From: a virus
Virus record (IMG/VR): IMGVR_UViG_3300023179_000353
Coordinates: 1-30,777 of that record
Direction: 5' to 3' (one strand)
Length of the DNA: 30,777 nucleotides
The notes below the pieces were generated by a model. That model had not been told where the DNA came from. It searched no databases and worked only from the letters and a program-made list of their open reading frames with translations. This document shows positions 4,763-24,385 of the stretch, piece by piece. The number at the start of each line of letters is the position of its first letter. Position 1 is the stretch's first letter. The position numbers and the translations under genes were made by a program.

Positions 4763-4915
4763 GCTATTAGTGTAAAATTTGTTCCCGTTAGGGAACAACG
4801 GGGGGGATTATAGGGGGGGGTAAGGAATACTGGATACTGTAGTCACCGAGCCATAGCGAGGTGACAATACTTAAACAGTTTGTGCTGTTTACAATACAAG
4901 AAGCGTGGACAAAAA
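4763..4915. promoter_or_regulatory. Divergent control region with three dyads and two G runs
   Basis: This region separates minus-strand late genes from plus-strand genes. It holds GTTCCC-gtta-GGGAAC (4781-4796), GTCACC/GGTGAC (4842-4847 with 4860-4865) and TAAACAG/CTGTTTA (4872-4878 with 4885-4891). Two runs of seven and eight G (4800-4806 and 4813-4820) flank ATTATA. Divergent promoters and operators are expected here; the G runs and the adjoining small terminase gene also make a packaging site or a G-quadruplex possible. No -35/-10 pair is convincing. Confidence 0.55.
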
Positions 4916-5311
4916 ATGGCGTACAATAAACCAGAACTAAGAAAACGCATAGTTGCTTCTGTTAAGGCTGGGACTGCTGGTGGTAAAGCAGGGCAGTGGT
5001 CTGCTCGTAAAGCACAAATAGCAAACAAACGGTATCAGTCTGCAGGTGGCGGATTCAGTGGACCAAAAACTGCTGCACAATCATCCCTCAGTAAATGGTC
5101 AGACCAAAAATGGCGTACCAAATCAGGTAAACCATCCACTGTTGGACCTAAGGCTACTGGTGAACGGTATTTGCCGTCAGCAGCCATCAAATCTCTTAGC
5201 AGCAAAGAATATGCTGCAACCAGTGCAGCAAAACGCAAGGGCACCAAGGCTGGTAAACAGTTCGTTAAACAACCCAAAACCATAGCCCAAAAGACAAGGA
5301 AATACAGATAA
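4916..5311 (+). CDS. Basic conserved protein, resembles DUF5872 family
   Basis: 131 residues starting at the ATG at 4916 (MAYNKPELRKRIVASVKAG). The sequence is strongly basic with the segments GGKAGQWSARKAQ, KSGKPSTVGPKATGERYLP and a Lys-rich tail (AKRKGTKAGKQFVKQP). These match my memory of a family listed as DUF5872, found in phages and large DNA viruses, without a known function. High charge and small size suggest DNA or RNA binding, for example genome condensation or a virion-associated basic protein. It is the first gene of a three-gene block linked by TAATG overlaps. No strong Shine-Dalgarno is seen. Confidence 0.7.
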   Translation: MAYNKPELRKRIVASVKAGTAGGKAGQWSARKAQIANKRYQSAGGGFSGPKTAAQSSLSKWSDQKWRTKSGKPSTVGPKATGERYLPSAAIKSLSSKEYAATSAAKRKGTKAGKQFVKQPKTIAQKTRKYR

Positions 5312-5972: not shown

Positions 5973-6483
5973 AGCGCTATTCGGGCATGTGGCGGACTGT
6001 GAAACGGACTATCGGCAATAGATGGGGTTTTGCCAACCATGTGTTTAGCGTGTGAATTTCGGTGCGCATTATGCGTAGGGAAACAGGCGCAATAAAAGGC
6101 GTGGGGTTGGTGACTTGACTTTTGGTTTTGGGTGGCTCATAATAATGGGGTCGGCATTGGTGGCAACACTGAACGATAGAACACTCCATCGTGATTGGTG
6201 GCTCATAGGTGTTCGCTGTGATTGATGATGGCAGGTTGCCTCATTCAGTCAAGTGCTCAGATGGCTAGATGCTGAGCGGTTGCAATTTGGGTGCAGTGAT
6301 TTTGCATCGGCATTAGGTGAGTCGTGAGCGGTTCGGTTGCAACGATTGAGGCGATTCGTGCTGTGCACTTTTCGCCTTGCAGATTCGTGATTTCGGGCAG
6401 ATTAGCAAGTGTCCCGATTACTTGAGTGATGATGCAAGGACGACGGGATGTGGTGGGCACGATTTGCGGAGTGTGTCGGGGTG

Positions 6484-6492
6484 TGGTACCAT
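6484..6492 (+). promoter_or_regulatory. Extended -10 promoter candidate before the 6617 gene
   Basis: TGg-TACCAT at 6484-6492, with a weak -35 (TTGCGG, 6464-6469) at 17-base spacing. It agrees with the other TGn-TAnnnT sites at 6948, 9849 and 13291. Moderate to weak on its own; the recurrence upstream of structured leaders raises it. Confidence 0.4.
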
Positions 6493-6540
6493 TGTACCTT
6501 TACGAACGGCATGCGGTTTCAGGTGTGGCTAGTGTCCTTG

Positions 6541-6572
6541 CAACAGTGCGATTCTGTTGGCATCTACGATGC
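6541..6572 (+). other. Tandem hairpins in the leader of the 6617 gene
   Basis: Two abutting perfect stems: CAACAG/CTGTTG (6541-6546 with 6554-6559) and GCATC-tac-GATGC (6560-6572). They lie between the promoter-like site at 6484 and the ribosome binding site at 6603. Similar pairs precede the genes at 7049 and 9953, which suggests a common role such as mRNA protection or processing. Confidence 0.55.
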
Positions 6573-6616
6573 AATTATGCAGATTGAGTAGCGATTACGA
6601 ACTGGGAGGTTCATAT

Positions 6617-6937
6617 ATGAAATTAGCATTTATTAATCCGAATGAGTCGGGTCGTTGGTGGCGTTACGGTACTGAGCGTAAGTGTGGTCGTTGGAGTTAC
6701 GCTGATGACACTAGTACTGAGGGTAAGCGTGAACGGTTTGTGATTCATCACGGCACTGTCATGGGTTGTTTCACCGAGGTTTCGGAGAATGTTTGGAGTT
6801 TCACTCCGATTTCTATTGGTTGGGGTAGTGTTTCTGACCAGCAGGGCATGAATAAGATTATGCCTTCGGCATGGCGTTATCGCCGTAATGGTGGTCATGC
6901 CCGTTATGAGTTCAACGGAGTTGAATACAAGTTTTAA
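6617..6937 (+). CDS. Small hypothetical early protein, aromatic-rich
   Basis: 106 residues from the ATG at 6617, chosen because a strong ribosome binding site (ACTGGGAGGTT) ends just upstream; a longer frame to 6557 has none. The sequence is rich in Trp, Gly and Arg (ESGRWWRYGTERKCGRW, ENVWSFTPISIGWG), suggesting a compact beta protein. It is not recognised. It is the first gene behind the long gene-free region and so is probably expressed early, perhaps as a host-interaction protein, but nothing in the sequence shows this directly. Confidence 0.75.
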   Translation: MKLAFINPNESGRWWRYGTERKCGRWSYADDTSTEGKRERFVIHHGTVMGCFTEVSENVWSFTPISIGWGSVSDQQGMNKIMPSAWRYRRNGGHARYEFNGVEYKF

Positions 6938-6947
6938 GTTAGCGGTT

Positions 6948-6956
6948 TGCTATACT
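6948..6956 (+). promoter_or_regulatory. Extended -10 promoter candidate before the AAA+ gene
   Basis: TGc-TATACT at 6948-6956, just after the stop of the previous gene. The flanking TAGCGGTTTGCTATACTTA is very similar to TAGCGGTCTGTTATAGTTA at 9841-9859, upstream of another hairpin leader. No good -35 is visible, as is usual for extended -10 promoters. Confidence 0.5.
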
Positions 6957-6974
6957 TAATTGAATACGATGGTG

Positions 6975-7015
6975 GACAGGCATGGTGCTTGTCATTAGGT
7001 GTTCGTGAACGAACA
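6975..7015 (+). other. Tandem hairpins in the leader of the AAA+ gene
   Basis: First stem GACAGGC/GCTTGTC (6975-6981 with 6987-6993, one G-U pair, ATGGT loop). Second stem is the dyad TGTTCGT-ga-ACGAACA (7000-7015). The second is also a perfect palindrome in DNA and could be an operator instead. The ribosome binding site follows at 7037. Confidence 0.55.
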
Positions 7016-7048
7016 GCCATTAACACAACAATATAACTGGGAGGTTAT

Positions 7049-8305
7049 ATGTCAGCAGTCAAATCAAAGCAGGTCGTTGGTTACGACCAAGGCGGTCTAA
7101 TTGTCCACTTCGTGGATGGTTCTCGCAAGTCGTTAGCGTCTTGCACCAAGAATGAACTAATTGCAGTTTGCAATTATCGTGGCATCAAGTTCGTGGGTCG
7201 TCCACCGTTGCACTTTTCACCTTTGGTGATTGAGTCGGCGATTATGAACAATCAGGCTGAGATTCGCTATGTTGAATCTGCACCTTCGGTGCCATCAACG
7301 CCATCAGTGCCTCCAGTGATTCCGCAACCTGCGGTTGCTGGTTCGTTGGATGGTGCGATTCAACTTGTGGTGCATAATGCGGTGCAAGTTGCATTGGACA
7401 AGTTCAAGGCTGGTGTTGATGAGACACAAGTTGTTCAACTTGTTAATCAGGCTGTTGAGCCGTTGTTTACTGGCTTCAAGCATGAGGTCACCACTTTGGT
7501 GGATGAGATTCGTCCCAAGGTCACACAGGTTGTGATTGACTCTAAGCCTGCGAAAACTCTTGAGGGTGTACAGCACTTTCAGTTTGCTCAGGTGTTGCAA
7601 GCGGTTTCACGCCGAGTGAATATGTGGTTGGTTGGTTCGGCTGGCTCAGGTAAGACTGAGATTGCCCGACAGACTGCCGAGGCACTTGATTTGCCATTCG
7701 CTAGCATCAACTGTACATCTACGATGCAGGACTATCGCATCACTGGTTACAAGGATGCGAACCGTATCTATGATACGACACAGTTTCGTAACATATTTGA
7801 GAACGGTGGCGTGTTCGTGTTGGATGAGATTGACAATGCGAACCCGAATATTCTCGGCATATTGAACAGCGCTTTATCCAATGGATATATGGCGTTTCCC
7901 GACAAGCAGGTTGCCCGTCACAAGGATTTCGTGGCGATTGCTACAGCCAACACTTTCGGTGCTGGTGCGACAATGCAATATGTTGGTCGTAACCCGATTG
8001 ATGGTGCCACGATTGACCGCTTTGTACAGTTGCACATCAAGTATGATGAGGCGATTGAGCAATCCATGTTGGATGCTGTTGGTTTGGAACCTACGGTTTC
8101 AGCCAAGTGGCTCATCAATGTTCGCACTGCCCGTAAGAATGTTGAGACTGCTGGTCTCAAGATGATTATTTCGCCTAGGGCGACTAAGAATGGTGCGGAG
8201 TTGATTGCTGGCGGTTGGTCAGTGCGAGATGCGTGGGATGCTTCGGTGCTCAAGGGTGCCAAGGCTGACCAAGTGGACAAGGTAATGGTCGGTGTCTCCC
8301 TCTAG
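7049..8305 (+). CDS. MoxR/CobS-type AAA+ ATPase
   Basis: 418 residues, ATG at 7049 behind AACTGGGAGGTT. Residues 1-170 form a phage-specific N-terminal part with a Pro-rich linker (about 75-100). From residue 185 the protein is an AAA+ ATPase of the AAA_5/MoxR type: Walker A GSAGSGKT (196-203), Walker B VFVLDEID (255-262), sensor-1 Asn at 301 in ATANT, and an Asp-Arg-Phe at 323-325 that may supply the arginine finger. This branch includes CobS, CbbQ/NirQ and MoxR, which remodel or activate partner proteins, usually together with a VWA-domain protein. The next gene has features of such a partner. The substrate is unknown; a CobS-like role in cobalt chelation is possible but not shown. Confidence 0.85.
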   Translation: MSAVKSKQVVGYDQGGLIVHFVDGSRKSLASCTKNELIAVCNYRGIKFVGRPPLHFSPLVIESAIMNNQAEIRYVESAPSVPSTPSVPPVIPQPAVAGSLDGAIQLVVHNAVQVALDKFKAGVDETQVVQLVNQAVEPLFTGFKHEVTTLVDEIRPKVTQVVIDSKPAKTLEGVQHFQFAQVLQAVSRRVNMWLVGSAGSGKTEIARQTAEALDLPFASINCTSTMQDYRITGYKDANRIYDTTQFRNIFENGGVFVLDEIDNANPNILGILNSALSNGYMAFPDKQVARHKDFVAIATANTFGAGATMQYVGRNPIDGATIDRFVQLHIKYDEAIEQSMLDAVGLEPTVSAKWLINVRTARKNVETAGLKMIISPRATKNGAELIAGGWSVRDAWDASVLKGAKADQVDKVMVGVSL

Positions 8306-8358
8306 GGAGCCACTGGCTATTATCACCGAAACGATTATAGGAACTGGGAGGTTTCATC

Positions 8359-9207
8359 ATGCAAGTACATGTCACGAAGAACAGTCGGGGTTCCGAACTC
8401 TATATTGAAGAGTTTGAGTCGCTTGGCGAATTGTTGCGTCATGCTGGCGCTAATCAGGAGCCTAAGTCATCCAACAGCAACAACAGCAGTTTCACGCTGA
8501 CCGCATCTTTGCAGGATGCAGTTGATTTGGGTCTCAAGGGCTATACGGATGTGCGTCCCGATGTGGAGGCACAACTCAACGAACTTGAGTCGCATATCGC
8601 CGAGCATCTTGATGTTGCCTTTCAGGCTTGTCATTCGGTTGTTGGTGGGTCGGTTGATATCGCCCGATTCATCCAAGGCGAACCCGAGTGCATGGTTGAT
8701 TATGTTGCCGAACCTCAGGCTCGTATGGGTCGTGTGGTCAAGGTGCTGGTCAATATGGTGTTCTCGGCTCATGTGAACACTGCGGATATTGTTAAGCGTG
8801 GTGTTGTTGTGTGTGCCTTGATTGACACTTTGCACAAGTTGGGTGTCGGTGTTGAGGTTTGGTCGGAAGAGCCTACGGCTCACAGAGGCATAGACAAAGG
8901 TGATGTGTCATCGCATCTAGTCAAGTTGCATGATTCATCGGAGATGTTGGACATTGACAATTTGATGTTCGGTCTTTGCCATCCGTCAATGCTTAGGCGT
9001 ATCGGGTTCAGTGTTACTGAGCAGTCGGGTTGGAAGCATGCCAAAGAGGTTACTGCTGGTGGCTACGGCTATCCGAATAACCTTGAGTGTGTGGCTCGTA
9101 TCGGTGCTGATGTGACTGTCGGCAAGGTGCAGGATTGCAAAGGCGACATGTTGGCTGACCCTTGCAAGTGGGTGCTCGGTACGGTTGCAGGGTTGGGTTT
9201 GATTTAA
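8359..9207 (+). CDS. Putative VWA-like partner of the AAA+ ATPase
   Basis: 282 residues, ATG at 8359 behind AACTGGGAGGTTT, the same leader motif as the two genes before it. The N-terminus has EEFESLGELLRHAG, followed by a Ser/Asn linker (residues 35-45). The central part carries RGVVVCALIDTLHKLGVGVE followed by VWSEE, a helix-turn-strand arrangement much like a VWA (CobT/YehP-type) domain. A Ser-containing SEEP follows, but a clear MIDAS DxSxS is not seen. MoxR-type ATPases are generally encoded beside VWA proteins, so the pairing is inferred from gene order plus this fold resemblance. It ends right before a hammerhead ribozyme. The precise family is unknown. Confidence 0.55.
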   Translation: MQVHVTKNSRGSELYIEEFESLGELLRHAGANQEPKSSNSNNSSFTLTASLQDAVDLGLKGYTDVRPDVEAQLNELESHIAEHLDVAFQACHSVVGGSVDIARFIQGEPECMVDYVAEPQARMGRVVKVLVNMVFSAHVNTADIVKRGVVVCALIDTLHKLGVGVEVWSEEPTAHRGIDKGDVSSHLVKLHDSSEMLDIDNLMFGLCHPSMLRRIGFSVTEQSGWKHAKEVTAGGYGYPNNLECVARIGADVTVGKVQDCKGDMLADPCKWVLGTVAGLGLI

Positions 9208-9218
9208 CAAAGTTAGGA

Positions 9219-9285
9219 GGACGAAACACTCACAGCGTGTTGTGTGTTGTGGGTGTCTAACCGTGTTGCGGTTGCTGATGAGTCC
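9219..9285 (+). ncRNA. Type II hammerhead self-cleaving ribozyme
   Basis: All hammerhead core elements are present in circularly permuted (type II) order. Helix II strand GGAC (9219-9222), then GAA (9223-9225). Helix III: ACACTCAC (9226-9233) pairs with GTGGGTGT (9249-9256), eight pairs with one G-U. The cleavage nucleotide is C9257, in a GUC context. Helix I: TAACC (9258-9262) pairs with GGTTG (9270-9274). The core CTGATGA (9275-9281) is followed by GTCC (9282-9285), which closes helix II. Outside it, CAAA (9208-9211) can pair with TTTG (9288-9291) across an internal loop that could give the tertiary contact. Predicted cut: between 9257 and 9258, separating the VWA-like gene from the small gene at 9312. 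Confidence 0.93.
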
Positions 9286-9311
9286 AGTTTGACTTGATTA
9301 GGAGGTTGATT

Positions 9312-9530
9312 ATGGCTAGTCATTATGAAGTGGTTGTGAAGTGGATACCTGAGGACATACAGGGGTTACAGCCTGATTGGCATGAGTCCAAGTGTGAGTT
9401 TGTGTTGGATGAAATTTCGCACCAACTGCATGAGCGTGTTGTTGAATACGGCAACGAAGTTCTTGAGGGTTTGTTGTCCGATTGGATTGATGAAAGCGAA
9501 GAGCACTATTGTGAAGAAGAGGAGGCGTAA
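9312..9530 (+). CDS. Small acidic protein downstream of the ribozyme
   Basis: 72 residues from the ATG at 9312, with AGGAGG ten bases before it; an in-frame upstream start overlaps that site and is rejected. It is very acidic at the C-terminus (DESEEHYCEEEEA) and begins MASHYEVVVKWIPED, which suggests a small alpha/beta protein. Ribozyme cleavage at 9257 would leave a leader of 54 bases with a 5'-hydroxyl for this gene and the two after it. Its last codons double as the ribosome binding site for the next gene. Family unknown; acidic small phage proteins often mimic DNA or inhibit host enzymes, but that is speculation here. Confidence 0.8.
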   Translation: MASHYEVVVKWIPEDIQGLQPDWHESKCEFVLDEISHQLHERVVEYGNEVLEGLLSDWIDESEEHYCEEEEA

Positions 9531-9679
9531 TGACAACTACAGGGTTTAGTATTTTAGATAAAACAACGGGTGAAAAATTGGCGACACTACCGCTAACCAT
9601 TCCTATCGGTTCAACCGTAGATGGGTTTAAAGCGGCAGGGTATGAAGTTATTTGGGTTTGGGAAAAGGAGGAGGCGTAA
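9530..9679 (+). CDS. Tiny hypothetical protein
   Basis: 49 residues, MTTTGFSILDKTTGEKLAT at the start and EVIWVWEKEEA at the end. Its ATG overlaps the previous stop (TAATG) and sits behind GAGGAGG, and the same arrangement is repeated at its own end. It looks like a compact beta protein. The nearly identical gene-end sequences here and at 9519-9531 may be simple ribosome-binding-site reuse. Function unknown. Confidence 0.75.
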   Translation: MTTTGFSILDKTTGEKLATLPLTIPIGSTVDGFKAAGYEVIWVWEKEEA

Positions 9680-9825
9680 TGAGTTTCGGTGAATTACTGG
9701 TTGGTTTGATAGTTTTTCAGGCTGTTATGGTTTGGGTCAGTTATTTTATACTGACTAACGAATCAGGTTCACAGCGTCACCAGCATGGTCGTGACTATCC
9801 GTACGACCAAGACCTAGATTGGTGA
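9679..9825 (+). CDS. Small single-span membrane protein
   Basis: 48 residues. Residues 5-24 (around LLVGLIVFQAVMVWVSYFIL) form one hydrophobic transmembrane helix. The remaining half is hydrophilic with His, Arg, Asp and Tyr (QRHQHGRDYPYDQDLDW) and probably faces the cytoplasm or periplasm. It is coupled by TAATG to the preceding gene. It is too short and too early in the gene order for a confident holin call, but a membrane-active early protein or superinfection-exclusion protein is possible. The stop abuts the next promoter-like site. Confidence 0.75.
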   Translation: MSFGELLVGLIVFQAVMVWVSYFILTNESGSQRHQHGRDYPYDQDLDW

Positions 9826-9857
9826 TTGACAACACTGCACTAGCGGTCTGTTATAGT
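9826..9857 (+). promoter_or_regulatory. Promoter candidate before the DUF3846-like gene
   Basis: Consensus TTGACA at 9826-9831 and TATAGT at 9852-9857, with an extended -10 TG at 9849-9850. The spacing is 20 bases, longer than the usual 17. The same -35 neighbourhood, TGACAACACTGCAC, and the same 20-base spacing recur at 13268-13299. Confidence 0.55.
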
Positions 9858-9878
9858 TATAGTAATGGTTTAATGATT

Positions 9879-9922
9879 TGCCATCTGACGATGGCATCTA
9901 GTATGGATGATTTGTCCATGCT
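9879..9922 (+). other. Tandem hairpins in the leader of the 9953 gene
   Basis: First stem TGCCATC/GATGGCA (9879-9885 with 9890-9896, TGAC loop). Second stem AGTATGGA/TCCATGCT (9900-9907 with 9915-9922, one G-U pair). Both lie between the promoter candidate and the AGGAGG at 9942. Same layout as the leaders at 6541 and 6975. Confidence 0.6.
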
Positions 9923-9952
9923 AATTAGCAATATGCAACTTAGGAGGTTGTA

Positions 9953-10573
9953 ATGTTAGGCATAACAATGGGTGCCGTCATAGGCACAGAGGTAGGTAAG
10001 GAACCCGAACCCTGCATTATCGGTGATATCGCCGATATTCAGGCTAAGGTTGGCGGTCACTTTGATTGTGTCCGCATCAATGTGGGTAGTGACCCGTCAG
10101 CCGATGATGTGTTCACTTTGGTGGGCTATGTTCACGATGAGGGCAGGATTTTGAATCCTCCTTTGGAGATTAATCTCATGGCTTCCATGATTTTCAATCA
10201 AGAAATTCGTGGCAACTGTGTCATTCTCAGTGGCACCAATCCCGAAACCAAGGCGTATGACGGTGAGAATTATGATTTGCCTGCCGTGTTCTACGAATTT
10301 TTGTGCAAGCAGATGACTAAGGACATTGAGCAATCGGTTTCGTTTACTCGGTTGCTGGCTAGTTCGGTCAGTTTGTCATACAAAGCGAATCAAATTTCTA
10401 AAGAGGAATTTGATTATATTCATGAAACGATTGGCAAGTTGAATGGCAACGCTGTTGGTGGCAACCTAGACAGCATGCCTGCAAAACTTAAGTCGTTGCT
10501 TGAGAAGTGCATGCAATATATGGCTACCGAGGTTGGAACTTTGCTCGGTGTTGAAATTAAAGAGGAGGAATGA
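9953..10573 (+). CDS. DUF3846-like phage protein
   Basis: 206 residues, ATG at 9953 behind TAGGAGG. Residues 20-110 contain the recognisable DUF3846-type pattern: GDIADIQAKVGGHFDCVRI, then LVGYVHDEGRILNPPLEIN, MASMIF and a Gly-rich segment before YDLP. This family is frequent in phages of actinobacteria and others and has no established function. The C-terminal half is helical with Met, Lys and Glu and looks like a separate domain (KLNGNAVGGNLDSMPAKL). It is the first gene of a tightly packed run of small genes and its four-base ATGA overlap couples it to the next. Confidence 0.75.
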   Translation: MLGITMGAVIGTEVGKEPEPCIIGDIADIQAKVGGHFDCVRINVGSDPSADDVFTLVGYVHDEGRILNPPLEINLMASMIFNQEIRGNCVILSGTNPETKAYDGENYDLPAVFYEFLCKQMTKDIEQSVSFTRLLASSVSLSYKANQISKEEFDYIHETIGKLNGNAVGGNLDSMPAKLKSLLEKCMQYMATEVGTLLGVEIKEEE

Positions 10574-10812
10574 TGTCTAATTTGGATGTTTCGGATGGGT
10601 GTAATGCACCTGTTACGCCAGTTGTGTCTGCTCGTCCGAAGAAGGTGGTGGGGTGCAAGCCCCATCGCCGTGTGTTGTCACCTGCTGGCACCTATAGGTG
10701 TCCGAAGTGTGATAACGAGATAATTGTGTTTGTTCGCATGTCGGCTTTGCCGTTGTGCATTAATCATTCGGCATCCAGTGGGGGTGCCGTGTTTATGGAG
10801 GAGGTTAAATAA
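10570..10812 (+). CDS. Small zinc-ribbon-like protein
   Basis: 80 residues, ATG at 10570 overlapping the previous stop. A second ATG three bases later is equally possible. Residues 43-66 hold CPKC and, 17 residues later, CINH, a Cys/Cys...Cys/His arrangement typical of a small zinc ribbon. The N-terminus is basic (RPKKVVGCKPHRR). Such proteins in phages commonly bind nucleic acid or RNA polymerase; no specific family is identified. Confidence 0.7.
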   Translation: MMSNLDVSDGCNAPVTPVVSARPKKVVGCKPHRRVLSPAGTYRCPKCDNEIIVFVRMSALPLCINHSASSGGAVFMEEVK

Positions 10813-10985
10813 TGTTGAAACATAAATGGAATCCTGAAACTATGCGTAGCGGTTTTGATGCGATGCTACAGCATGCAGAACTGCAGGAGATTGAGCATGA
10901 AACCGATGTGGTTTTGGGTTCGTATTGGTCGGGCATTAAAGATGCTTTGTTGGTTGTTGTAAAAATATTGGAGGAGGAAAAATGA
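10812..10985 (+). CDS. Tiny hypothetical protein
   Basis: 57 residues, MLKHKWNPETMRSGFDAM through the C-terminal VVKILEEEK. Its ATG overlaps the stop of the zinc-ribbon gene (TAATG) and its end supplies GGAGGA for the next start, which overlaps by ATGA. The protein is probably all-helical and mixed charge. Both overlaps support translation. No family recognised. Confidence 0.7.
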   Translation: MLKHKWNPETMRSGFDAMLQHAELQEIEHETDVVLGSYWSGIKDALLVVVKILEEEK

Positions 10986-11173
10986 GCGCATTAGCAGAGA
11001 ACGAACTTGCATTACTTGCACGAATCGTGCATGGCGATAACGCTGTTGAATTTCTTGTTGGCGCATTGTCGTCAGTAACTACTGAAAGTCAAATACAGGC
11101 ATTGATAACAAGCCTAATAGAAATTGCGGTTACAAGATTAAAAGAGGAGCAAAATGAAATTGAAACATGTTGA
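10982..11173 (+). CDS. Small helical hypothetical protein
   Basis: 63 residues, ATG overlapping the previous stop. The composition (MSALAENELALLARI, LIEIAVTRLKEEQNEIE) points to two or three amphipathic helices, perhaps a small dimerising protein. Its last 20 bases overlap the next gene in another frame, including that gene's ribosome binding site. Function unknown. Confidence 0.7.
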   Translation: MSALAENELALLARIVHGDNAVEFLVGALSSVTTESQIQALITSLIEIAVTRLKEEQNEIETC

Positions 11174-11360
11174 AGTGCCATTCCCGAAGTGCCCTAGGTG
11201 TGATGGGTTTATTCCGAACGACAAGGATGCTGGCAAGTATGCTGGTGCCCTTAGTCGTTTGGATAACCGCACCGAGGTGTGTTCTAAGTGTGGGGAGATT
11301 GAGGCGTTGGAGCAGATGATGTACGGAAAAGTTTACAACTTTTTAGAAGGCAGGTCATAA
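11154..11360 (+). CDS. Zinc-ribbon protein with two CxxC motifs
   Basis: 68 residues. Two knuckles, CPRC (13-16) and CSKC (43-46), surround GFIPNDKDAGKYAGALSRL, matching a zinc-ribbon protein that is very common in phages of actinobacteria, where the middle segment reads GALSR. The role is unknown; zinc structure and nucleic-acid or protein binding are inferred. It overlaps the start of the following gene by one base (TAATG). Confidence 0.75.
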   Translation: MKLKHVEVPFPKCPRCDGFIPNDKDAGKYAGALSRLDNRTEVCSKCGEIEALEQMMYGKVYNFLEGRS

Positions 11361-12100
11361 TGGGACATGATGATTTAGCGGATGTGAAACCGTTGGGTGT
11401 GCGCATGCAGATATCTGATGGTGTGCATGGTATGTGGATGGGGCGACAGTTGTGCGAGGTGCGTGGCTATAGTGCGCCTTGGACTAACGACAAAATTTTG
11501 GATTATTTCCAAGATTTATGCACCTTTTATGATGCTTGGTCGGAATCTATTTCGCATGTTGCGTTACCTGATGCGATGTCCGAACTACAGGCGTTGGATT
11601 TGGATGGCGATACTTTCAACAAGTGGAAGTTGATTCGTGCGTATGTTGAGGGTGCTTATAGCAAGTTCCCGAACGAGTCGCTGGTTTCCATAATGGTTGC
11701 GTTGGGGATTACCCCAACACAATATCTACAGGCGTGTACTACTGGTGGGTTGCCGAAATGTTTTGAAGCGACCCCCGATTTTATTAGTCGGCTTGAAGAA
11801 TATTATTTGTCGCACGAAAAAATTGTGTGGGTTGAAATCGCCAAAAAGTTCGGTATCAGCGCCCATATCGCCAAGAATATTTGCCGAGTGTTTGATAAAC
11901 GGCATGTCGCCAAATATGGTGACCTTGCAGGTCGGCGTAAGTATGCCCGAGAACTGTTGAACGATTTGGCGTTGTGCACGGACGAAACACCAACGAATGT
12001 AACCAAAGAAGTGTTTGACCGTACTGGGGTGCAGTTTGATTTGTCTGCGGTTACGAAAATTCGTAAGCGTAAACGCAACACTCAACCACTAGAGTTATAA
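11360..12100 (+). CDS. Helical protein with HTH-like segment, possible DNA-binding protein
   Basis: 246 residues, ATG at 11360 coupled to the zinc-ribbon gene. It looks mainly alpha-helical. Residues 155-173 (WVEIAKKFGISAHIAKNIC) resemble a helix-turn-helix, and the C-terminus is strongly basic (TKIRKRKRN). A DNA-binding regulator or replication initiator is possible because it directly precedes the nuclease and replication genes. No named family recognised. Confidence 0.6.
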   Translation: MGHDDLADVKPLGVRMQISDGVHGMWMGRQLCEVRGYSAPWTNDKILDYFQDLCTFYDAWSESISHVALPDAMSELQALDLDGDTFNKWKLIRAYVEGAYSKFPNESLVSIMVALGITPTQYLQACTTGGLPKCFEATPDFISRLEEYYLSHEKIVWVEIAKKFGISAHIAKNICRVFDKRHVAKYGDLAGRRKYARELLNDLALCTDETPTNVTKEVFDRTGVQFDLSAVTKIRKRKRNTQPLEL

Positions 12101-12124
12101 TCACAAACTACCCATAGGAGCAAT

Positions 12125-12967
12125 ATGAAACTGGATACTGTAAACAAGCGCATTTATGTGCGCCAATCATGGTTGAACGATGTGTTGATGTGTCCCGAAC
12201 GGGCACGGCTCGCAACGAAGAATCCGCAGATGCGGATGGCTAGTGATGCGACCATCATTGGTACGGCTGTGCATCATGCGATTGAAACTTTTATTAACAC
12301 GGCTGACGAAGAAGGTATGGTTGGTCAAGAAGTTGAAGAGATGGTCAAGTGTGCCATCGCCGAGTATCAGCGTTTAGCGTTGGAACCGCACCGCAAAACT
12401 GGTATTGATGAAACCAAAATTTTGTCGTACATTGATGCGATGTGCGTTGCGTGGTACACAACGATTATGCCATTCGTGGAACTGGGTGGCAAAACCGAGC
12501 ACCGTTTCGTGTTGCCTATTGGTATCAATATTGGTGGCTACGATACCTATATTGAGGGCACGATAGATTACATTACGCCGTCTGGTGTTATCTGGGATTG
12601 GAAAACGGCTGGGCGCTCATATTCGGGTGCAGAGAAACAAAAGAACGCTGTGCAAGCATCCATGTATGCGATGGCGGCGTGCATTGAAGGCATGGTACCG
12701 AACGAGAACGACATTGAGTTCAAATATGGTGTAATGATTCGGCAAGAAACCCCGAAAGGGCAGGTTGTTTCGTTGCATCGTAATCAGGAGCATGTTGAGT
12801 GGATTCGTAATCAAATCATTTCGGCTTGCCGAATGGGTGTGTCTTTAGGTGTTGATACAGGCTGGTTGTTGAACGACCAAGGCAATCTGTGTTCATCCAA
12901 GTGGTGCGATTTTTGGTCAATGTGCAAAGGCGCAACAATCTCCGAGCAGTCGTTGTTGCTCAAATAG
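12125..12967 (+). CDS. RecB/Cas4-like PD-(D/E)XK nuclease with four-cysteine cluster
   Basis: 280 residues, ATG at 12125 with AGGAG upstream. Motif order is that of RecB-family nucleases: GTAVHHAIE (46-54), acidic Asp148 in EGTIDY, Asp158-x-Lys160 in the DWKT motif, and a Gln/Tyr motif in QASMYAMA (near 175-182). Cys23 plus Cys256, Cys261 and Cys267 match the four-cysteine iron-sulfur cluster seen in Cas4 and AddB-type nucleases. Expected role: exonuclease in phage recombination, DNA processing or host DNA degradation. The cofactor and direction are not visible. It precedes the helicase-primase module. Confidence 0.85.
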   Translation: MKLDTVNKRIYVRQSWLNDVLMCPERARLATKNPQMRMASDATIIGTAVHHAIETFINTADEEGMVGQEVEEMVKCAIAEYQRLALEPHRKTGIDETKILSYIDAMCVAWYTTIMPFVELGGKTEHRFVLPIGINIGGYDTYIEGTIDYITPSGVIWDWKTAGRSYSGAEKQKNAVQASMYAMAACIEGMVPNENDIEFKYGVMIRQETPKGQVVSLHRNQEHVEWIRNQIISACRMGVSLGVDTGWLLNDQGNLCSSKWCDFWSMCKGATISEQSLLLK

Positions 12968-13892: not shown

Positions 13893-14959
13893 TGCAAGAC
13901 CCCGACTTCAAGGGGCGATGGTCAGCGTTAGGGCGGGGAGAACAACTCCCCGCCTTTGACGCATCTAAGACCCCCGCACACTTTTTTAAACCACTAGCGC
14001 TTGCGGCTGACGAATATGTATATTGGGCACAAAACCCTGACGAACGAATCTATTTGGGGTTCCCTGACATTGATGGGCAGATGCGTGGCATCGCACCATC
14101 AGAAATGTGTTTGATAAACGGCTACAGCCATAGCGGTAAAACTTTGTTTCTGTTACAAATCTTGTTGGCGAACAAAACAAAACCCGTAATCTACTTTTGC
14201 CCTGACGAACCCCGAACATTGACGCTAATCAAATTGGCGTGTCTGACGCATGGCATTGACGCAAATTTGTTGGAGCAAGAAATCAGCCGAGGTGTACCCG
14301 AAGCGATTGAACTGCTACGCAAAACCTCAACCGAAGAGTTCCCGAACCTAGCGGTCTTTGACCAAATGCTGTCCTTAGCGGATATGGAACGGGCGTTGGG
14401 TGAAGTGCGTGACGCTTGGGGTCAGCCAGCGTTAATCGTGTTTGACTACTTGGAACTGTTGATGGGTGGCGGTGAAGATGTGCCATCCAAAGCGAACACA
14501 CTCAAAGGTTTTGGTAAACGCCATAATGTTCCATTATTGGTGTTGCATCAATCATCTAGGTCTGCTGGTGCGGATGGGCGAAAAATGACTATATCTTCAG
14601 GTGCATACGGTGGTGAGCAACAATCAGCGCATGTGATTGGTGTTCGCCGTAAACGCTTTGAGATAGAAGCACAGATTCGTGAAATTGAGGACAAACTAGA
14701 TAAGTCCAACAGCACAGAACGACTACTGGAACGCTTGGATTCTTTACGGTACGAACAGCGTATCCACATGAATACGGTGACAATCAACTTGGTGAAATGT
14801 AAACGCCCAGCATCAACATTATTGGATGACATGGATTACGAAATTGAACAAGGCACAGGCAGACTGATTCGGCTCACGAACCACAATCTGCCGTCATATA
14901 TCCATAATGAACCACAAGTTCCGCAACAACTGGAACTGGCGGTAATGGAGGACTGGTGA
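13892..14959 (+). CDS. RecA/DnaB-fold replicative helicase or ATPase
   Basis: 355 residues, start ATG overlapping the previous stop. Walker A GYSHSGKT at 77-84, Walker B with Asp185 in LIVFDYLELL, and a LHQ motif with Gln220, as in DnaB/RadB-type RecA folds. The N-terminal part is short and lacks the usual DnaB dimerisation domain. A charged coiled region (about 255-290) precedes the C-terminus. Expected role: 5'-3' helicase driving replication, coupled to the primase by a four-base GTGA overlap. It could instead be a RecA-type recombination ATPase. Confidence 0.8.
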   Translation: MQDPDFKGRWSALGRGEQLPAFDASKTPAHFFKPLALAADEYVYWAQNPDERIYLGFPDIDGQMRGIAPSEMCLINGYSHSGKTLFLLQILLANKTKPVIYFCPDEPRTLTLIKLACLTHGIDANLLEQEISRGVPEAIELLRKTSTEEFPNLAVFDQMLSLADMERALGEVRDAWGQPALIVFDYLELLMGGGEDVPSKANTLKGFGKRHNVPLLVLHQSSRSAGADGRKMTISSGAYGGEQQSAHVIGVRRKRFEIEAQIREIEDKLDKSNSTERLLERLDSLRYEQRIHMNTVTINLVKCKRPASTLLDDMDYEIEQGTGRLIRLTNHNLPSYIHNEPQVPQQLELAVMEDW

Positions 14960-15852
14960 TACCTGAACAAGTAGTCGGCATGTTCACCACACTGTTTCGT
15001 GGTCGTGGCGATGTGTACGGACATGAAGAAGGTAGATGCGTTAAAGAACCATTGACACACGATGTTTTTAAACAACACCTACAAGGTGTTCAAGCAATCG
15101 GTGTGTATCCGATGGTGCCCATCAACAATGTGCATCATGTTGTTTGGGGATGCTCCGACATTGACATAGAAGATTTGGCTGGTGCCCGAAAAATCCAGTC
15201 AGCGTTATCTGCCGTGAATGTCACCTCGTTCGTGGAGCGTTCACGCTCCAAAGGTTACCATGTTTGGGTATTCGCAGAACAAGTTGTCCCTGCGTCAGAT
15301 ATGCGAAGAATGCTGTTGTGCGCCCATCAGGTCGCAGAATATCCTGCACGAGAAGTAAACCCGAAACAAGAAACATTGAACTCAGGTCAATACGGCAACT
15401 ATGTTCGCTTACCGTATTTCAACGCCGAGGACATGACCGACTCGCACAGGCGCATATTGGATGCCGATAATCAGGCGATGCCGTTAAACGATTTTGTTTC
15501 ATCCGCTATGTCATCACGAACACCAACGAAACTTATTGCCGACCTAGCGAAGTTGTGGCAGGAACCTGTAGCGACATCTGCTGTGATTGACATGTCGCAA
15601 TCCGTCAGCGTTAAAGAAGCATTGATGCAACTCAGCCCCCTAGGTAAAGTGATATGGCGTGATGGTCCGCTACCAACAAAAGACCGTTCAACGACACTGG
15701 CACGCCTAGGGCACGAGTGTGTGCGGTCATGTATGTCGCCCAGTGAAACGAAAATTGTTTTGGTTGATGCAGATAAACGGTGGGGTAAATATCATTTGCG
15801 TCCCAACGGTGAACTAGAAATAGACAAATTGGTTGTACGGGTGTTCTCGTGA
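14956..15852 (+). CDS. Archaeo-eukaryotic-type primase (AEP)
   Basis: 298 residues, GTG start at 14956, overlapping the helicase stop and preceded by GGAGGA. Catalytic motifs of the AEP superfamily are visible: Asp68-Ile-Asp70 (in GCSDIDIED), an sxH-like SKGYHVW with His102, and NYVRLPYF (148-155). The last third (res 200-298) resembles a helical C-terminal domain. It would make RNA or DNA primers for the helicase. The family is similar to phage and TOTE-type primases. No zinc-binding domain and no separate DNA polymerase gene are present in the cluster, so host polymerase or a polymerase elsewhere is needed. Confidence 0.75.
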   Translation: MIPEQVVGMFTTLFRGRGDVYGHEEGRCVKEPLTHDVFKQHLQGVQAIGVYPMVPINNVHHVVWGCSDIDIEDLAGARKIQSALSAVNVTSFVERSRSKGYHVWVFAEQVVPASDMRRMLLCAHQVAEYPAREVNPKQETLNSGQYGNYVRLPYFNAEDMTDSHRRILDADNQAMPLNDFVSSAMSSRTPTKLIADLAKLWQEPVATSAVIDMSQSVSVKEALMQLSPLGKVIWRDGPLPTKDRSTTLARLGHECVRSCMSPSETKIVLVDADKRWGKYHLRPNGELEIDKLVVRVFS

Positions 15853-18255: not shown

Positions 18256-18350
18256 TCCTCTTCGCTGTCATCCAGTTTTTCGCCACACACAGGATTCTGT
18301 GGCAACGGCTTTTGCCGTTCCAAACATGCACATAATTTTGCTTTAAACAT
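18252..18350 (-). CDS. Tiny cysteine-containing protein, convergent with the plus cluster
   Basis: 32 residues, MFKAKLCACLERQKPLP then NPVCGEKLDDSEED. The ATG overlaps the TAA of the giant virion gene (TAATG), a junction used throughout this phage. Three Cys residues could bind metal. It would be the last gene of the late operon and is weakly supported because of its size. A stem AACGGC-tttt-GCCGTT (18304-18319) lies inside it. Confidence 0.45.
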   Translation of the reverse strand: MFKAKLCACLERQKPLPQNPVCGEKLDDSEED

Positions 18351-21300
18351 TAACCCTCGGATGGAATAAGATTTCGTTCAATCATTTCTTTAGTAAAATC
18401 TTTCAAAGTAAACTGACGATTAATCAACTCACTACGAACATTATCATCCTTAATAATTGTAATCGGAATACCCAACTCATTCAACCACGATTGACCTGTT
18501 CGTGTAGCATAATTTTCTTTGCCACCCAAACTACCGCCAGACAATCTTTGTATTCTGGAAATCAACGGAATAGCGTTACCCAACGCATATTGAGTGAAAC
18601 CCTTAATAGTCTTATTACCCTGTTTGTCATAAATAGGGTCAAAGCCGATTGATTCTAAAATATTAACGGCGGCTAGTTCTAAACCACGAGCAGGTGTACG
18701 CTCAGGAAAAGGACCAACATCAATACCAAGTTGCTTGCCAGCAATATATTCAAAAGGCAACTTGTATATTGGATACGCTTGACCAACCAAACGGCGTGGG
18801 TCCAAAATAGAACGCAAACCTTCCTGCAATCTTTGTTGAGGCATATCAGGTTGAATTGTGTAATAACCTTCACCCAGTAACGGCACATTACCACGACCAA
18901 TACCTAGTGGCTCACGAGGTTCCTGCCATTCAGGAATAATTTGTTCGCTATCAACAGGCAAAGTCTGTTGAACTTTCTCATAAATGTTGTATGCGTTCGG
19001 ACGCATAAACTGGTTCGTTATCTGATTCGGAATGTTTCGTGTTGTCCAAATCCAAAACGGCACAAACTGCAACATCATTTCATCCAACTTGGACAAATCG
19101 CTATAATCAAAATGGTAGCGGGTCACCTTCGCAACAGCGTCATCATAACTACCACCCTTTAATATGGTGTCTAACGCCATTGGGAAACGCACGGCTGCTT
19201 CAACACGGGTGTTCGCACGGCGAACACCCCGAGTATAAGCATTAGTGGAGAACCCTTGCTTGCGAACAAACTCGGCTGCGTTCTCCGCAACAGGTTGCAT
19301 CCGAGTACCCAAACTAGTGGAATCCAAACCAGTTTTATTTAACAAATTGATTATACGCTCACCAAGCGTTCCAGCGATAACAGGTTCACGCAAATCCGTA
19401 AACGACCCCTGTAAGCCCGTAGCAATCGCCGCCTTCAACGCCTGCTCATATTGTCCACGCAACACAGGGTCCACAATACCCAACTTATCCAACCATCTAG
19501 CAGGACCATACTTGTTCAATGCGTTCATAGCCTTAACACCTTGCACGGCGGTCATACCATCAACACCAGCAACAGCATTCATAAACATAGACGAATACGA
19601 GTTACGAACAACAAAACCAAGACTGGTTACCGCATAAGTTTTAAACAAATCATTTGCGGCAAACAAAAACTGTCGCACCATACCAGCATTTGACTTAGCC
19701 AAAAGTTTCTGCAAATTAGGTTTCCACACAGACAACAACTGCTCAGGTGCCTGCACACCCAACCCCAAAATCGCTTCCCAACCCTCAAGCACCCGTTGCT
19801 CAACGGGTGCCATAATCTCACCAAATCTGCCAGCCCTAACAATATCTATTAGTTCCTTGTTGGCAACAACAGCGTCCTCGGCTTGCGCCAAACCAACCTC
19901 ACCAACATGCAACAACTGTGTTACACGCTCATACGCCGCTTTAACAGTTTGGTCTTTAATATATTTAGTTGATTCAACGCTGCGTTGTACGCTGCGCACC
20001 CATTCACGGGCAGCAACACCAGCCTCGCCTCGTGCTGGCATATTTAACATCGCCTGCCCAACAGCAGCGAGTTCGTTACGCAAAGCGTTACCCGTGCCAT
20101 CACTCCATTGTTTTAATGTTTTGGCTTGTTCAAACAAAACCTGTAAACGGTCTTGATAATTTAGTAATTGTCTTTCCGCACCTGCTATTGTTTGCGCTTT
20201 TGCGCTAGAAGTTCCCACACCTGTTCCGAGAACGCCCTGATTTCCTGCGGGGACATTTCTGCCAACGGCTTGGGTGGCTGTATCAACTCCACGAACTCCT
20301 GTTGCTTCTTCTCTACCACCAGTTCCTCCTGTCGGTATTTCTTGTTTGTTTTTAACATCCCAAATAGCCTGTTGGTTTCTTTCACGACCAGCCCTAACTG
20401 CTTCGTCTTGTTTCAGTATATTATCAACAACATCTAAAACAACTTCATCATTATTTTTATCATGCCAAATACCAAGATAGTTTTTGCCACCTAACTGTTC
20501 TTTTTTGCTGTTGAAATATGATTCCAATATATTGACACCACTTGATTTCTCAAAGAAATCTGATGCAGGAACAATGGTGCTGAACTCTTTGCGTGCCACC
20601 ATAAAACCACCTGTGGGTTCTTTGCCTGTCAGCATACGCACGGACAAACCTTCGTTAGCAGCAACTTTTTCTATAATGGATTCCAACTGTCTAGGTTTAG
20701 GAACAGCAATTTCTCCTGCCCGTCCACCAACACGAATCTCGCCAACAGCCTGAGCAATAGAACGCTCCAAATTCCTACGCAACTTCGCTTCCTGTTTAGT
20801 TGCTGTTTCCAACGCTTTGGTGATACCAGCACGGTCCAACACAACCTTCTGACCACCAACAATAACAGTTTGTTTCCTACCTTGAATTTCAGCAACCTGC
20901 GCCCGTGCACCAGCAACAACCTGCTGTCGTTGCACCTTCTGTTGCGCCAACATTTCTTTCTGAGCAGTCAGTTCACGAATACGAGCACCAATAGCACTAC
21001 GAGCAACATCAACTTCTTGGCGTGCACCAGCAGCCTCAGCCAACCGACCCGCAGCAGCCTCACTGGCGGTCGTATAATCGGAACGCAATATAGAACCCAA
21101 CACAGGATTGTCGGCACCCTGAACAGGTGCCGTAGTAGAATTAGACGGCGTAACCATATAATCTTGCGGTTTAACAACAACAATCGCAGTATCTTCAGCC
21201 GTGTCATCAAACAACTTCGCAGGCAACAACAACCCATCCATCTGTCTCTCTAGGTCGGCAGCCAAAGCCACATCACCCAATGCCGAATCTATAATCATTC

Positions 21301-24300
21301 TGCCAGTTTGTTCCGCAGCAGGGTCGCCCGACATGTGCGCAATACCAACCATAGTTGCAACAAAATCATCATAAATACCTTTAACAACATCAGGGTCACC
21401 ACCAGCAGGCATCTCACGACCAGCGTTATCCAATATGTCATCAATCAAATTCACCAAATCTGGATAACCACGCTCAATCTCTGGGTCCAATGGCAAACCC
21501 TGTTTCAAATCATAATAGGTTTTAATAAACACCCTGTTGGCATCCAAACCAGCGTCTTGCAATTGTGTATCAATGCTTTTAACAAAATTATCTGACCCAA
21601 AAATTTCTTGAATACCATCCGATGTCCGTGAATCAACAACCTTGCTGTCAGGGAAAGCATGGACACCAATGACATCTGGAGCGCCTTGGAATATTGTTGG
21701 TTCACTATGAAGCAACTGAAACGGTGCATCGGGCGAACCTAAATCTGTTTGACTGGTATATAGAAAACCGTTATCAGGTGCATAGGTTTGTGCGGAACGC
21801 ACCTCACCCATAATGCGATAACCATTCAACAAATCTTTATAGTAACCTTCTTGTTGTACCAGCGCAGCATACTCGGGGCTGTTCGGGTCCACCAAATCTA
21901 GTTGTGTGTTAATTTTGCGCAACTCTGCTTGTACGGCTCGTGCTTCACGAGAAGCAGGAGCGCCTCGTGCAGCCATAATGCGGTCAGCCAAAATGTTTAT
22001 ATCATCAGGAATCCGTTTAGCGTTCGGGAACATCGCCATATATGTTTGTTGCAAAGTGGTACGCACTTCGGACAAACCGCCGTCACCAATTTCAATGGCT
22101 CGGCGTAACTCTTTAATTTCCGACAACAACACCGAATGTGCGGCATCAAAATTTTCACGCATAGACACCTCAACGGTGCTTGCCATCGTGCGTGCACGAC
22201 TTAAATCAAACTCTAGTTGCTTAAGCCGTGCTACTGTTGTTCTGATTTCACGCTCGGTAAGTTTGCGTTGTTTTAAGTTTTCTTTAATCAAATCGTCAGC
22301 ATATTTCATGCCCCGATTAACAATGTCACGCAAAGTTTGACGCTGATTAGCGGCACCTTGACGCAACGAATTACGAACAGCCAACAAACTCTTGTGGGAT
22401 TTGATTAACTCTGATGCAAGCGCTTTATTAGGGATTTCATTATCTAACAATTTTTGCGCAGCATCCTCACCATAAGCCATCAGCCTTCTGGTAAACACTT
22501 CACGGCTTTTTTGTTTAGCCAAAGAATACGCATACGAATCAGCAATATTGCCGATATCGGTTTCAAAGAAGTTTATGTTGGTGCCTGAAACTTCTTTAAA
22601 AATTTTGTTGATTTCGTCAATGCCACCTTTTTCCAATATGCGACCCATAAACTCTTCGCCAGCCTTCAGGCTGCGATACTTCAAAGGCGCACCAACAGTA
22701 ACAATTTCGTTGTAACTAAGATTGTTTGTGTTAAAAACAACATTTTTGCCAGTCTTAATATCTTTAAATGTTATTCCTTTGTCATTAAAAGCATTAATGG
22801 AACGCAACCAGTTTTTTGCATCTTTACTGATTGTGTGATGCACATAGTTATTAATAAAACTAAAATCAGGAATATCAGTTCCATAATCAAGACCAAACCG
22901 TTTATATTGTTGTTCAACAGCCTTATAGGCATCATCTTGCCAAGTCTTGTAGCGTTTAACTAAACCGTCCTCAATAGCCGTTCTAGGCAAATCAGGGTTT
23001 TCAATAAGACTGATTAGTTTGCCAGCAACACCTTGTTCACGGGCTTCATTAATAATTGTTTCAACACCATCCTTAAAGGTTGTGTATGCAAAACCTGTTT
23101 CGCCTTTACCAGCATTTGCAGCCGACCATCCAGCCAACCCACGAATAACGCCAGCGTTGTTCAATATGTATTCGCCACCCAAAGTTTTTCTTCCAGCCCC
23201 AGCCAACAACGCCCTGCTAGCAGGAGCAAGAACAGGGACAACATCCAAACCTTTTGCTTTCAAAGGCAGCGAAGCGGTTGCACGAGCAACATCACCAATT
23301 TGTGCACGGGTCAAAGCCCAACCTTTACCAATAACATCGGCAACAGGTTCAGTCCACTGAACAGGTTTACCAGCCAAACGCAAACCAGTATTAATACCTT
23401 CAGCCAAACGAATCTCTCTAGGAATAGCCCACATACCAACACGAGCAATTTCGTTTGCTTTACCAGCCAAAACAGGATATTTTTCCAACATTTCTGTTGT
23501 CATAAATTTTGCCGCTAATGCGGTGCGTCCAGCCTTGCCAACAAACTTAACTTCACCAACACCCGTAACATAGTTCAACGGTTTAGTAACTTCTTCGGCA
23601 ATAAGGTTTTGAACGGCACCAACATATTTGTTGCGTTCAATGTTGCGTTTGGCAATAATGGTTTTTTTCAAACCCCAATCAGGGTCTTTGGCTTGATTAA
23701 CTAAATCAATAACACTGAACTGAATTTTGTCCCCGCCAATGTCAGGTCGTTTCAATAACTCTTCTTTAGTGTTGCCCATACTGATAATGTCGGCACCAAC
23801 TTGAAAAAGCGGATTTGAAATAAAACCCGCAGTTTTTACAACGGATTTTAATACAGGGTTTTTAACGCTGAGTTGCAAATCCGATAACTCTTTACTGGCA
23901 GACTGACCAATACGATTAACAGGATTGATAATTCCGCCAAGCAAACCAGCCCAAGCCTTGCCTTGGGATTCTAAAGAAAAATCTCCACCAGCCGTAGCCA
24001 CAGTTTTATAACTAGACTTAAACGGAGACAAAATTTTTGAATACGCTACATCTTGTAGTTTTTTAAACAATGATGGTGCTGGACCGCCAGTAGAAACCTG
24101 TCGTCTTTCACCAGCCGCAATACGGTCCGCTTCGGCAATTAACTCTTGTTTCTGTTTAGGGGTTAAACTAGGAGAAAGATTAATTCGTGCTTTAGTGGTT
24201 TGAGCACCTGTATAGAGTTTTTGTTCTTCTTCAGCAACAGTTGATTTAGGTTTATCATAATTGGATTTGGCATCTGGTTTTGTATACAGTTTTTTAAAAA

Positions 24301-24385
24301 CATCAGATTCCCACAAAGACGGCGGTTTAGGCGGTGTTTTACCGCTTTTACGAAAAGCAGTTACTGGATTTGGTGTAATCGCCAT
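18350..24385 (-). CDS. Giant internal virion-type protein
   Basis: 2011 residues from the ATG at 24385 (a TTG three bases upstream is less likely). N-terminus is Lys/Pro-rich (TPPKPPSLWESD). Long helical and coiled-coil regions occupy about 650-760 and 1150-1220 (rich in Arg, Gln and Glu). A distinctive C-terminal part near residues 1755-1790 reads RYHFDYSDL then QFVPFWIWTTRNIPNQI, a motif I associate with very large phage proteins that are ejected or polyvalent. It is preceded by a helical region containing FVVRNSYSSMF. Position after the tail nozzle and two Ala-rich proteins fits a podovirus internal core or ejection protein. No lytic transglycosylase motif was identified. Confidence 0.7.
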   Translation of the reverse strand: MAITPNPVTAFRKSGKTPPKPPSLWESDVFKKLYTKPDAKSNYDKPKSTVAEEEQKLYTGAQTTKARINLSPSLTPKQKQELIAEADRIAAGERRQVSTGGPAPSLFKKLQDVAYSKILSPFKSSYKTVATAGGDFSLESQGKAWAGLLGGIINPVNRIGQSASKELSDLQLSVKNPVLKSVVKTAGFISNPLFQVGADIISMGNTKEELLKRPDIGGDKIQFSVIDLVNQAKDPDWGLKKTIIAKRNIERNKYVGAVQNLIAEEVTKPLNYVTGVGEVKFVGKAGRTALAAKFMTTEMLEKYPVLAGKANEIARVGMWAIPREIRLAEGINTGLRLAGKPVQWTEPVADVIGKGWALTRAQIGDVARATASLPLKAKGLDVVPVLAPASRALLAGAGRKTLGGEYILNNAGVIRGLAGWSAANAGKGETGFAYTTFKDGVETIINEAREQGVAGKLISLIENPDLPRTAIEDGLVKRYKTWQDDAYKAVEQQYKRFGLDYGTDIPDFSFINNYVHHTISKDAKNWLRSINAFNDKGITFKDIKTGKNVVFNTNNLSYNEIVTVGAPLKYRSLKAGEEFMGRILEKGGIDEINKIFKEVSGTNINFFETDIGNIADSYAYSLAKQKSREVFTRRLMAYGEDAAQKLLDNEIPNKALASELIKSHKSLLAVRNSLRQGAANQRQTLRDIVNRGMKYADDLIKENLKQRKLTEREIRTTVARLKQLEFDLSRARTMASTVEVSMRENFDAAHSVLLSEIKELRRAIEIGDGGLSEVRTTLQQTYMAMFPNAKRIPDDINILADRIMAARGAPASREARAVQAELRKINTQLDLVDPNSPEYAALVQQEGYYKDLLNGYRIMGEVRSAQTYAPDNGFLYTSQTDLGSPDAPFQLLHSEPTIFQGAPDVIGVHAFPDSKVVDSRTSDGIQEIFGSDNFVKSIDTQLQDAGLDANRVFIKTYYDLKQGLPLDPEIERGYPDLVNLIDDILDNAGREMPAGGDPDVVKGIYDDFVATMVGIAHMSGDPAAEQTGRMIIDSALGDVALAADLERQMDGLLLPAKLFDDTAEDTAIVVVKPQDYMVTPSNSTTAPVQGADNPVLGSILRSDYTTASEAAAGRLAEAAGARQEVDVARSAIGARIRELTAQKEMLAQQKVQRQQVVAGARAQVAEIQGRKQTVIVGGQKVVLDRAGITKALETATKQEAKLRRNLERSIAQAVGEIRVGGRAGEIAVPKPRQLESIIEKVAANEGLSVRMLTGKEPTGGFMVARKEFSTIVPASDFFEKSSGVNILESYFNSKKEQLGGKNYLGIWHDKNNDEVVLDVVDNILKQDEAVRAGRERNQQAIWDVKNKQEIPTGGTGGREEATGVRGVDTATQAVGRNVPAGNQGVLGTGVGTSSAKAQTIAGAERQLLNYQDRLQVLFEQAKTLKQWSDGTGNALRNELAAVGQAMLNMPARGEAGVAAREWVRSVQRSVESTKYIKDQTVKAAYERVTQLLHVGEVGLAQAEDAVVANKELIDIVRAGRFGEIMAPVEQRVLEGWEAILGLGVQAPEQLLSVWKPNLQKLLAKSNAGMVRQFLFAANDLFKTYAVTSLGFVVRNSYSSMFMNAVAGVDGMTAVQGVKAMNALNKYGPARWLDKLGIVDPVLRGQYEQALKAAIATGLQGSFTDLREPVIAGTLGERIINLLNKTGLDSTSLGTRMQPVAENAAEFVRKQGFSTNAYTRGVRRANTRVEAAVRFPMALDTILKGGSYDDAVAKVTRYHFDYSDLSKLDEMMLQFVPFWIWTTRNIPNQITNQFMRPNAYNIYEKVQQTLPVDSEQIIPEWQEPREPLGIGRGNVPLLGEGYYTIQPDMPQQRLQEGLRSILDPRRLVGQAYPIYKLPFEYIAGKQLGIDVGPFPERTPARGLELAAVNILESIGFDPIYDKQGNKTIKGFTQYALGNAIPLISRIQRLSGGSLGGKENYATRTGQSWLNELGIPITIIKDDNVRSELINRQFTLKDFTKEMIERNLIPSEG

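Follow-up and report, generated by a model that had tools for sequence, protein, structure and literature searches.

Type II hammerhead ribozyme at a predicted early operon junction

Sequence analysis confirmed that positions 9219-9285 (plus strand) of IMGVR_UViG_3300023179_000353, a 30,777-base virus record analyzed over its full length (the window), constitute a complete canonical type II hammerhead ribozyme, which probably cuts a polycistronic early transcript once to give separate hairpin-ended mRNAs. The ribozyme occupies the gap that follows the end of one gene at 9207 and precedes the start of the next at 9312, and its core elements follow the order GGAC-GAA-helix III-C-helix I-CTGATGA-GTCC. 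All of the invariant hammerhead elements are present (CUGANGA as CTGATGA, GAA, and UH at the cleavage site as T16.1-C17), and three helices that show covariation surround the core. Loops close helices I and III while helix II opens to the flanks, as defines type II. As in an operon-processing element, the motif is on the sense strand between co-directional genes; the window record, which may be a fragment, has a single copy, which does not fit a retrozyme or circular-RNA element. The features of the region are as follows.

7049-8305, plus strand: AAA_5 (MoxR-like) ATPase gene, two genes upstream (Pfam match)
8359-9207, plus strand: upstream gene, DUF7192 (PF23822), predicted VWA/MIDAS-like fold (family match, structure model)
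9210-9217, plus strand: outer extension of helix II, predicted 5' arm, AAGUUAGG (minimum free energy fold; not kept in the related locus L124)
9219-9222, plus strand: helix II 3' strand, GGAC (sequence; invariant in all seven ribozymes of the junction)
9223-9225, plus strand: core G12 A13 A14, GAA (sequence; invariant in alignment)
9226-9256, plus strand: helix III hairpin (fold; paired substitutions in related phages, same junction)
9257, plus strand: C17, predicted cleavage 9257/9258 (core homology)
9258-9274, plus strand: helix I hairpin, UAACCG/CGGUUG (fold; paired substitutions)
9275-9281, plus strand: core CUGAUGA, C3-A9 (sequence; invariant except N7)
9282-9285, plus strand: helix II 5' strand, GUCC (sequence; junction alignment)
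9288-9295, plus strand: outer extension of helix II, predicted 3' arm, UUUGACUU (minimum free energy fold only)
9300-9305, plus strand: Shine-Dalgarno sequence AGGAGG of the downstream gene (sequence)
9312-9530, plus strand: downstream gene, 72-aa acidic protein (open reading frame)

When 9205-9300 is folded, the minimum free energy structure matches the hammerhead exactly (z score of -2.5). A first-pass annotation of this DNA had described a complete type II hammerhead here, and the sequence, the fold, and a covariance model place every core element where it had put them. It was also right that the predicted cut falls between a VWA-like gene and a small acidic gene and leaves a 54-nt leader (9258-9311). 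Its account of the helices needed revision. Helix III, described as 8 bp, has 12 bp (9226-9237 with 9245-9256) around a 7-nt loop, with a stability of -14.6 kcal/mol compared to a median of -12.8 kcal/mol across the hammerheads that we retrieved. Helix I does contain the proposed five Watson-Crick pairs, but a terminal U.G adds to them and the predicted fold gives seven pairs. Pairing of an outer CAAA (9208-9211) with TTTG, which had been suggested to allow docking on the helix I loop, is possible, but the predicted outer helix joins 9210-9217 to 9288-9295, and neither version is kept in L124.

Covariance models and pair conservation

At the Rfam gathering threshold (37 bits), no match was found at the window locus. 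The first-pass annotation had proposed this search and named the lack of a score against hammerhead models as grounds for refutation, so by its own criterion the null result at the curated threshold could look like one. With a relaxed threshold, the same search aligned the ribozyme along the full length of RF02276 (Hammerhead_II; model positions 1-66) with the core matched, at 19.9 bits (E of 0.1), a score below the 37 bits required for RF02276 membership. The threshold itself is stringent for such elements: applied to 68.6 kb made up mostly of the array loci described below (L129-L136), which hold dozens of clear type II hammerheads, it returned two matches. The Rfam type II threshold thus misses nearly all phage array copies, and these are undercounted wherever annotation relies on it. 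An independent covariance model, built from 54 other phage hammerheads with the window's sequence group left out, scored the window at 58.5 bits, with an E value of 1.4e-15 (the calibration is rough).

A motif finder with relaxed helices gave no comparable matches and 26 weak ones on both strands of 12.3 Mb of Markov-1 sequence. We also used a core pattern search that specified only the core and GGAC/GTCC and did not demand helices III and I. Among the matches listed, 106 of the 113 distinct sequences form both of these helices, compared to 5 of 2,260 with shuffled interiors. In an alignment of 56 sequences, standard pairs fill 97.6% of pair cells versus 61% in shuffles, and both-side changes occur at 17 of 19 pairs, including three of the four in helix II, far above the shuffled and slid controls. 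The aligned sequences were picked by a helix-seeking finder, a bias from which the core pattern test is free. C17 is present in 228 of 230 hammerhead matches.

The same junction in related phages

The window belongs to a family of related phages with a common operon (AAA ATPase - DUF7192 - ... - DUF3846 - exonuclease - DnaB - primase), in which hammerheads occur after DUF7192, before AAA, or before DUF3846, always in the sense orientation. The junction after DUF7192 carries a hammerhead in the window and in L002, L124, L003, L029, L033, and L097, with DUF7192 proteins 38 to 94% identical to that of the window. In all seven ribozymes the core is intact and none of the 15 pairs in helices III and I is lost; most of these pairs show more than one pair type, indicating paired substitutions. 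The nearest relative, L002, has two base differences in helix III, both of which preserve pairing.

A further relative, L127 (IMGVR_UViG_3300020183_000226), shares these genes but lacks a hammerhead at the junction, and a cut there is therefore not indispensable. Where near relatives have the hammerhead, L127 has a different structured spacer (4888-4980) made up of a closing helix plus two hairpins. This spacer may be a further element for cleavage or processing; a search of it for other known ribozymes gave no credible Rfam match. The more distant MW202803 has a strong two-hairpin spacer at the same junction. We infer that selection at this junction favors messages with hairpin-bounded ends, which self-cleavage is one means of producing.

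Abundance and placement of phage hammerheads

The first-pass annotation had called the type II permutation rare-looking, which is incorrect for phages: core pattern matches occur in at least 119 IMG/VR stretches, compared to 8 in 257 Gb of cellular genomes. Whole-record searches found 13, 13, 12, 10, 9, 8, and 7 copies within individual phage records. These array phages (L129, a 41-kb record; the 45-kb L051 record; L130, L131, and L133-L135) carry their copies on one strand, in a gene-ribozyme-gene-ribozyme order according to a simple open reading frame caller, and many copies begin exactly at a gene's stop codon. One-strand orientation holds in all 48 multicopy loci. Stem II starts -3 to 12 nt from the stop codon in 136 of the 165 hammerheads with a detectable upstream stop, and a Shine-Dalgarno sequence and start codon lie within 60 nt in 167 of 188 nonredundant hammerheads; this placement is far rarer in antisense and shifted controls. 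The window ribozyme likewise lies in sense between a stop codon, 11 nt before helix II, and a ribosome binding site.

Among cultured Streptomyces phages, Yara has 8 copies, and Dryad and Gibson have 7 each. Their records (MH019215.1, MT498037.1, and MK305891.1; L146-L148), with 7 to 8 hammerheads each, have no hammerhead annotated in the stretches shown. According to the deposited annotation, 20 of the 22 copies lie strictly between genes, and the same number end 10 to 16 nt before a start codon; in most other phages the start codon is 10 to 33 nt after the ribozyme. Yara gene 88 overlaps one hammerhead and may be a wrong gene call. Separately, NZ_JOEE01000015.1 and NZ_JNXI01000031.1 (L137 and L139; Phycicoccus and Streptomyces) contain three hammerheads at nearly equal spacing, which suggests a shared integrated element.

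Proposed function and alternative explanations

Hammerhead cleavage yields a 2',3'-cyclic phosphate and a 5'-hydroxyl. In the window, the predicted cut between C9257 and U9258 would separate the AAA/DUF7192 message from a message starting with the small acidic gene. The upstream 3' end would consist of the 12-bp helix III with a one-base overhang bearing the 2',3'-cyclic phosphate, and the downstream 5' end would be helix I with its 5'-hydroxyl flush. Because helix II is the open helix in type II, hairpins would close both new ends after the cut, whereas types I and III, as deduced from the permutation, would leave one of the two unpaired. Judging from anatomy alone, such ends would be expected to withstand 3' exonucleases and decay that depends on the 5' end, which would allow each gene block to persist and be translated on a schedule of its own. 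It is this closure on both sides, along with the stability of helix III, that leads us to propose cutting of the operon into hairpin-ended messages. We infer that the cut occurs in vivo, that the transcript is early and polycistronic, that the new ends are protected, and that the phage benefits. More tentatively, a large and mostly unannotated group of tailed phages may punctuate its early operons with type II hammerheads, up to 13 per genome, making separate mRNAs hairpin-closed at both ends, and may use type II because no other permutation places a hairpin on either side of the cut at once. Phage operons also contain RNase III and RNase E signals and intercistronic hairpins, which provide intercistronic cutting and hairpin-closed mRNA ends. 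The hammerhead would work similarly, but it needs no protein enzyme and, unlike those signals, encodes the cut site and both end structures in about 67 nt.

Folding in longer context leaves a real uncertainty for the window copy. When 9150-9330 is folded, predicted helix I probability is 0.46, compared to 0.99 for 9205-9300, because other pairings compete, and helix II probability is 0.10. For a nascent chain ending near 9300, helix II returns to 0.76 and helix I to 0.84. Weak helix II in silico is typical of the whole hammerhead set (mean of 0.19), but losing helix I when more flanking sequence is folded is specific to the window and not general (set mean of 0.81). This loss could be expected if cutting were regulated, with helix I competing against the end of the upstream coding sequence and either translation of DUF7192 or a ligand deciding the outcome; by inspection, ACGGUU at the 3' end of the DUF7192 coding sequence is complementary to AACCGU in helix I, and stem II often begins directly at the upstream stop codon. 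Considering that the effect is not general, that the upstream sequence differs in L124, and that no aptamer-like domain was found, we regard such regulation as quite unlikely. It is also unlikely, though somewhat less so, that the ribozyme is a translation switch that blocks the downstream ribosome binding site when folded and turns the gene on when cutting releases it. The spacing between ribozymes and start codons is short enough that a 30S footprint would overlap helix II, and an ACCUUU in the upstream flank of the L124 ribozyme could base-pair with the Shine-Dalgarno sequence. This pairing is absent in the window and L002, however, and mean predicted accessibility of the Shine-Dalgarno/start region does not rise on cutting (0.505 to 0.518 over 167 cases) and drops in the window (0.313 to 0.245). 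Release of the Shine-Dalgarno sequence on cleavage was thus not supported in silico and was set aside.

If hammerheads arise easily and persist at junctions through doing little harm, the element could instead be a selfish or neutral passenger of no benefit to the phage. The turnover of positions among related phages, with three junctions variably occupied, and the L127 junction without a hammerhead are consistent with this, but the core and all helices are kept at the junction across phages that are only 38 to 53% identical in DUF7192, and one-strand arrays of up to 13 copies are hard to explain in this way, making a mere passenger improbable. The most remote of the alternatives is that the motif arose by chance or serves simply as a hairpin spacer, a terminator, or an attenuator. 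This would account for the score below the Rfam threshold, and simple double-hairpin spacers do occur at the same junction in related phages. A chance origin of the window motif is already refuted by the random-sequence search, the independent covariance model, and the conserved core. As for a terminator or attenuator, 14 terminator-like sites were called in window 6400-12200 versus 5.1 expected, but none at the ribozyme junction, and a terminator there was rejected.

Relationship to known hammerheads

Cutting of phage operons into separate messages by hammerheads has been proposed before. Perreault et al. (2011; PMC3088659), in the study that discovered type II hammerheads, saw clusters of them flanking genes in prophages and proposed that they process phage operons. 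Tandem hammerheads within native polycistronic RNAs have been shown to cleave (in vitro for the Agrobacterium ardA, Clostridium scindens, and Azorhizobium tandems, and also in Escherichia coli for Agrobacterium), and HHphage of haloviruses HF1 and HF2 lies in an early transcript, 13 nt upstream of a start codon; the 5' end of that transcript maps within 3 nt of the hammerhead cleavage site (PMC3088659). The window ribozyme is a new member of this already known kind of phage type II hammerhead, sharing with RF02276 and the Perreault et al. examples the core, the permutation, and intergenic phage placement, often with several per operon. It differs in having a 4-bp rather than a 2-bp helix II (the latter in the RF02276 model) and in lacking the pseudoknot between loop I and the 3' tail that appears in the published type II consensus for the majority, not all, of the sequences (PMC3088659); the pseudoknot was rejected for the window, in which the longest Watson-Crick run is 2, and the run reaches 4 in 20 of the 188 retrieved phage hammerheads. 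HHphage resembles the window in being a hammerhead in an early phage transcript shortly before a start codon, but it is a variant hammerhead, discussed in connection with a high-salt host, whereas the window core is canonical. The Agrobacterium, C. scindens, and Azorhizobium tandems similarly separate genes of one polycistronic RNA; the published tandems are few copies tested, compared to up to 13 in phages related to the window and one in the window itself.

A search of the open-access literature on phage hammerhead arrays found nothing beyond Perreault et al. and reviews. Within the papers searchable, the array size, the presence in cultured Streptomyces phages, the tight stop/start spacing, the conservation at an orthologous junction, and the near blindness of the Rfam threshold are new. 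As a single secure example, backed by comparison across phages at one orthologous junction, the window opened the way to the arrays of 7 to 13 copies. The purpose of hammerheads in bacteria and phages has been a standing question since 2011. Since some array phages are cultured (Yara, Dryad, and Gibson), it is now testable, and knockouts and RNA end mapping are feasible.

Neighboring genes

The upstream gene matches the DUF7192 family and not Pfam VWA, and a sequence search against solved structures found nothing convincing. A structure model from 14 homologues (mean pLDDT of 81), which replaced a poor 3-sequence model, has as its best matches the VWA domains of NorD from NorQ-NorD complexes (Z up to 9.6). 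This match makes a MoxR/VWA reading of the upstream pair plausible and, together with the AAA_5 match, supports the MoxR and VWA-like genes of the first-pass annotation. The further suggestion that a position beside this pair is informative fared less well. Hammerheads do recur in that operon among related phages, yet the junctions they occupy are of three kinds, and the genes downstream of hammerheads across all loci fall into 144 families among 194 proteins. Hammerheads thus adjoin many unrelated genes, indicating that the MoxR/VWA pair is not the key, and we rejected a specific association with it. The 72-aa acidic protein has no PHROG or Pfam family match and has homologues in seven related viral loci. 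Elsewhere in the window, a 2012-aa open reading frame (18350-24388, minus strand) has weak similarity to one PHROG family of unknown function, and a primase gene (14956-15852, plus strand) matches the TOTE conflict-system AEP primase domain (PF22548).
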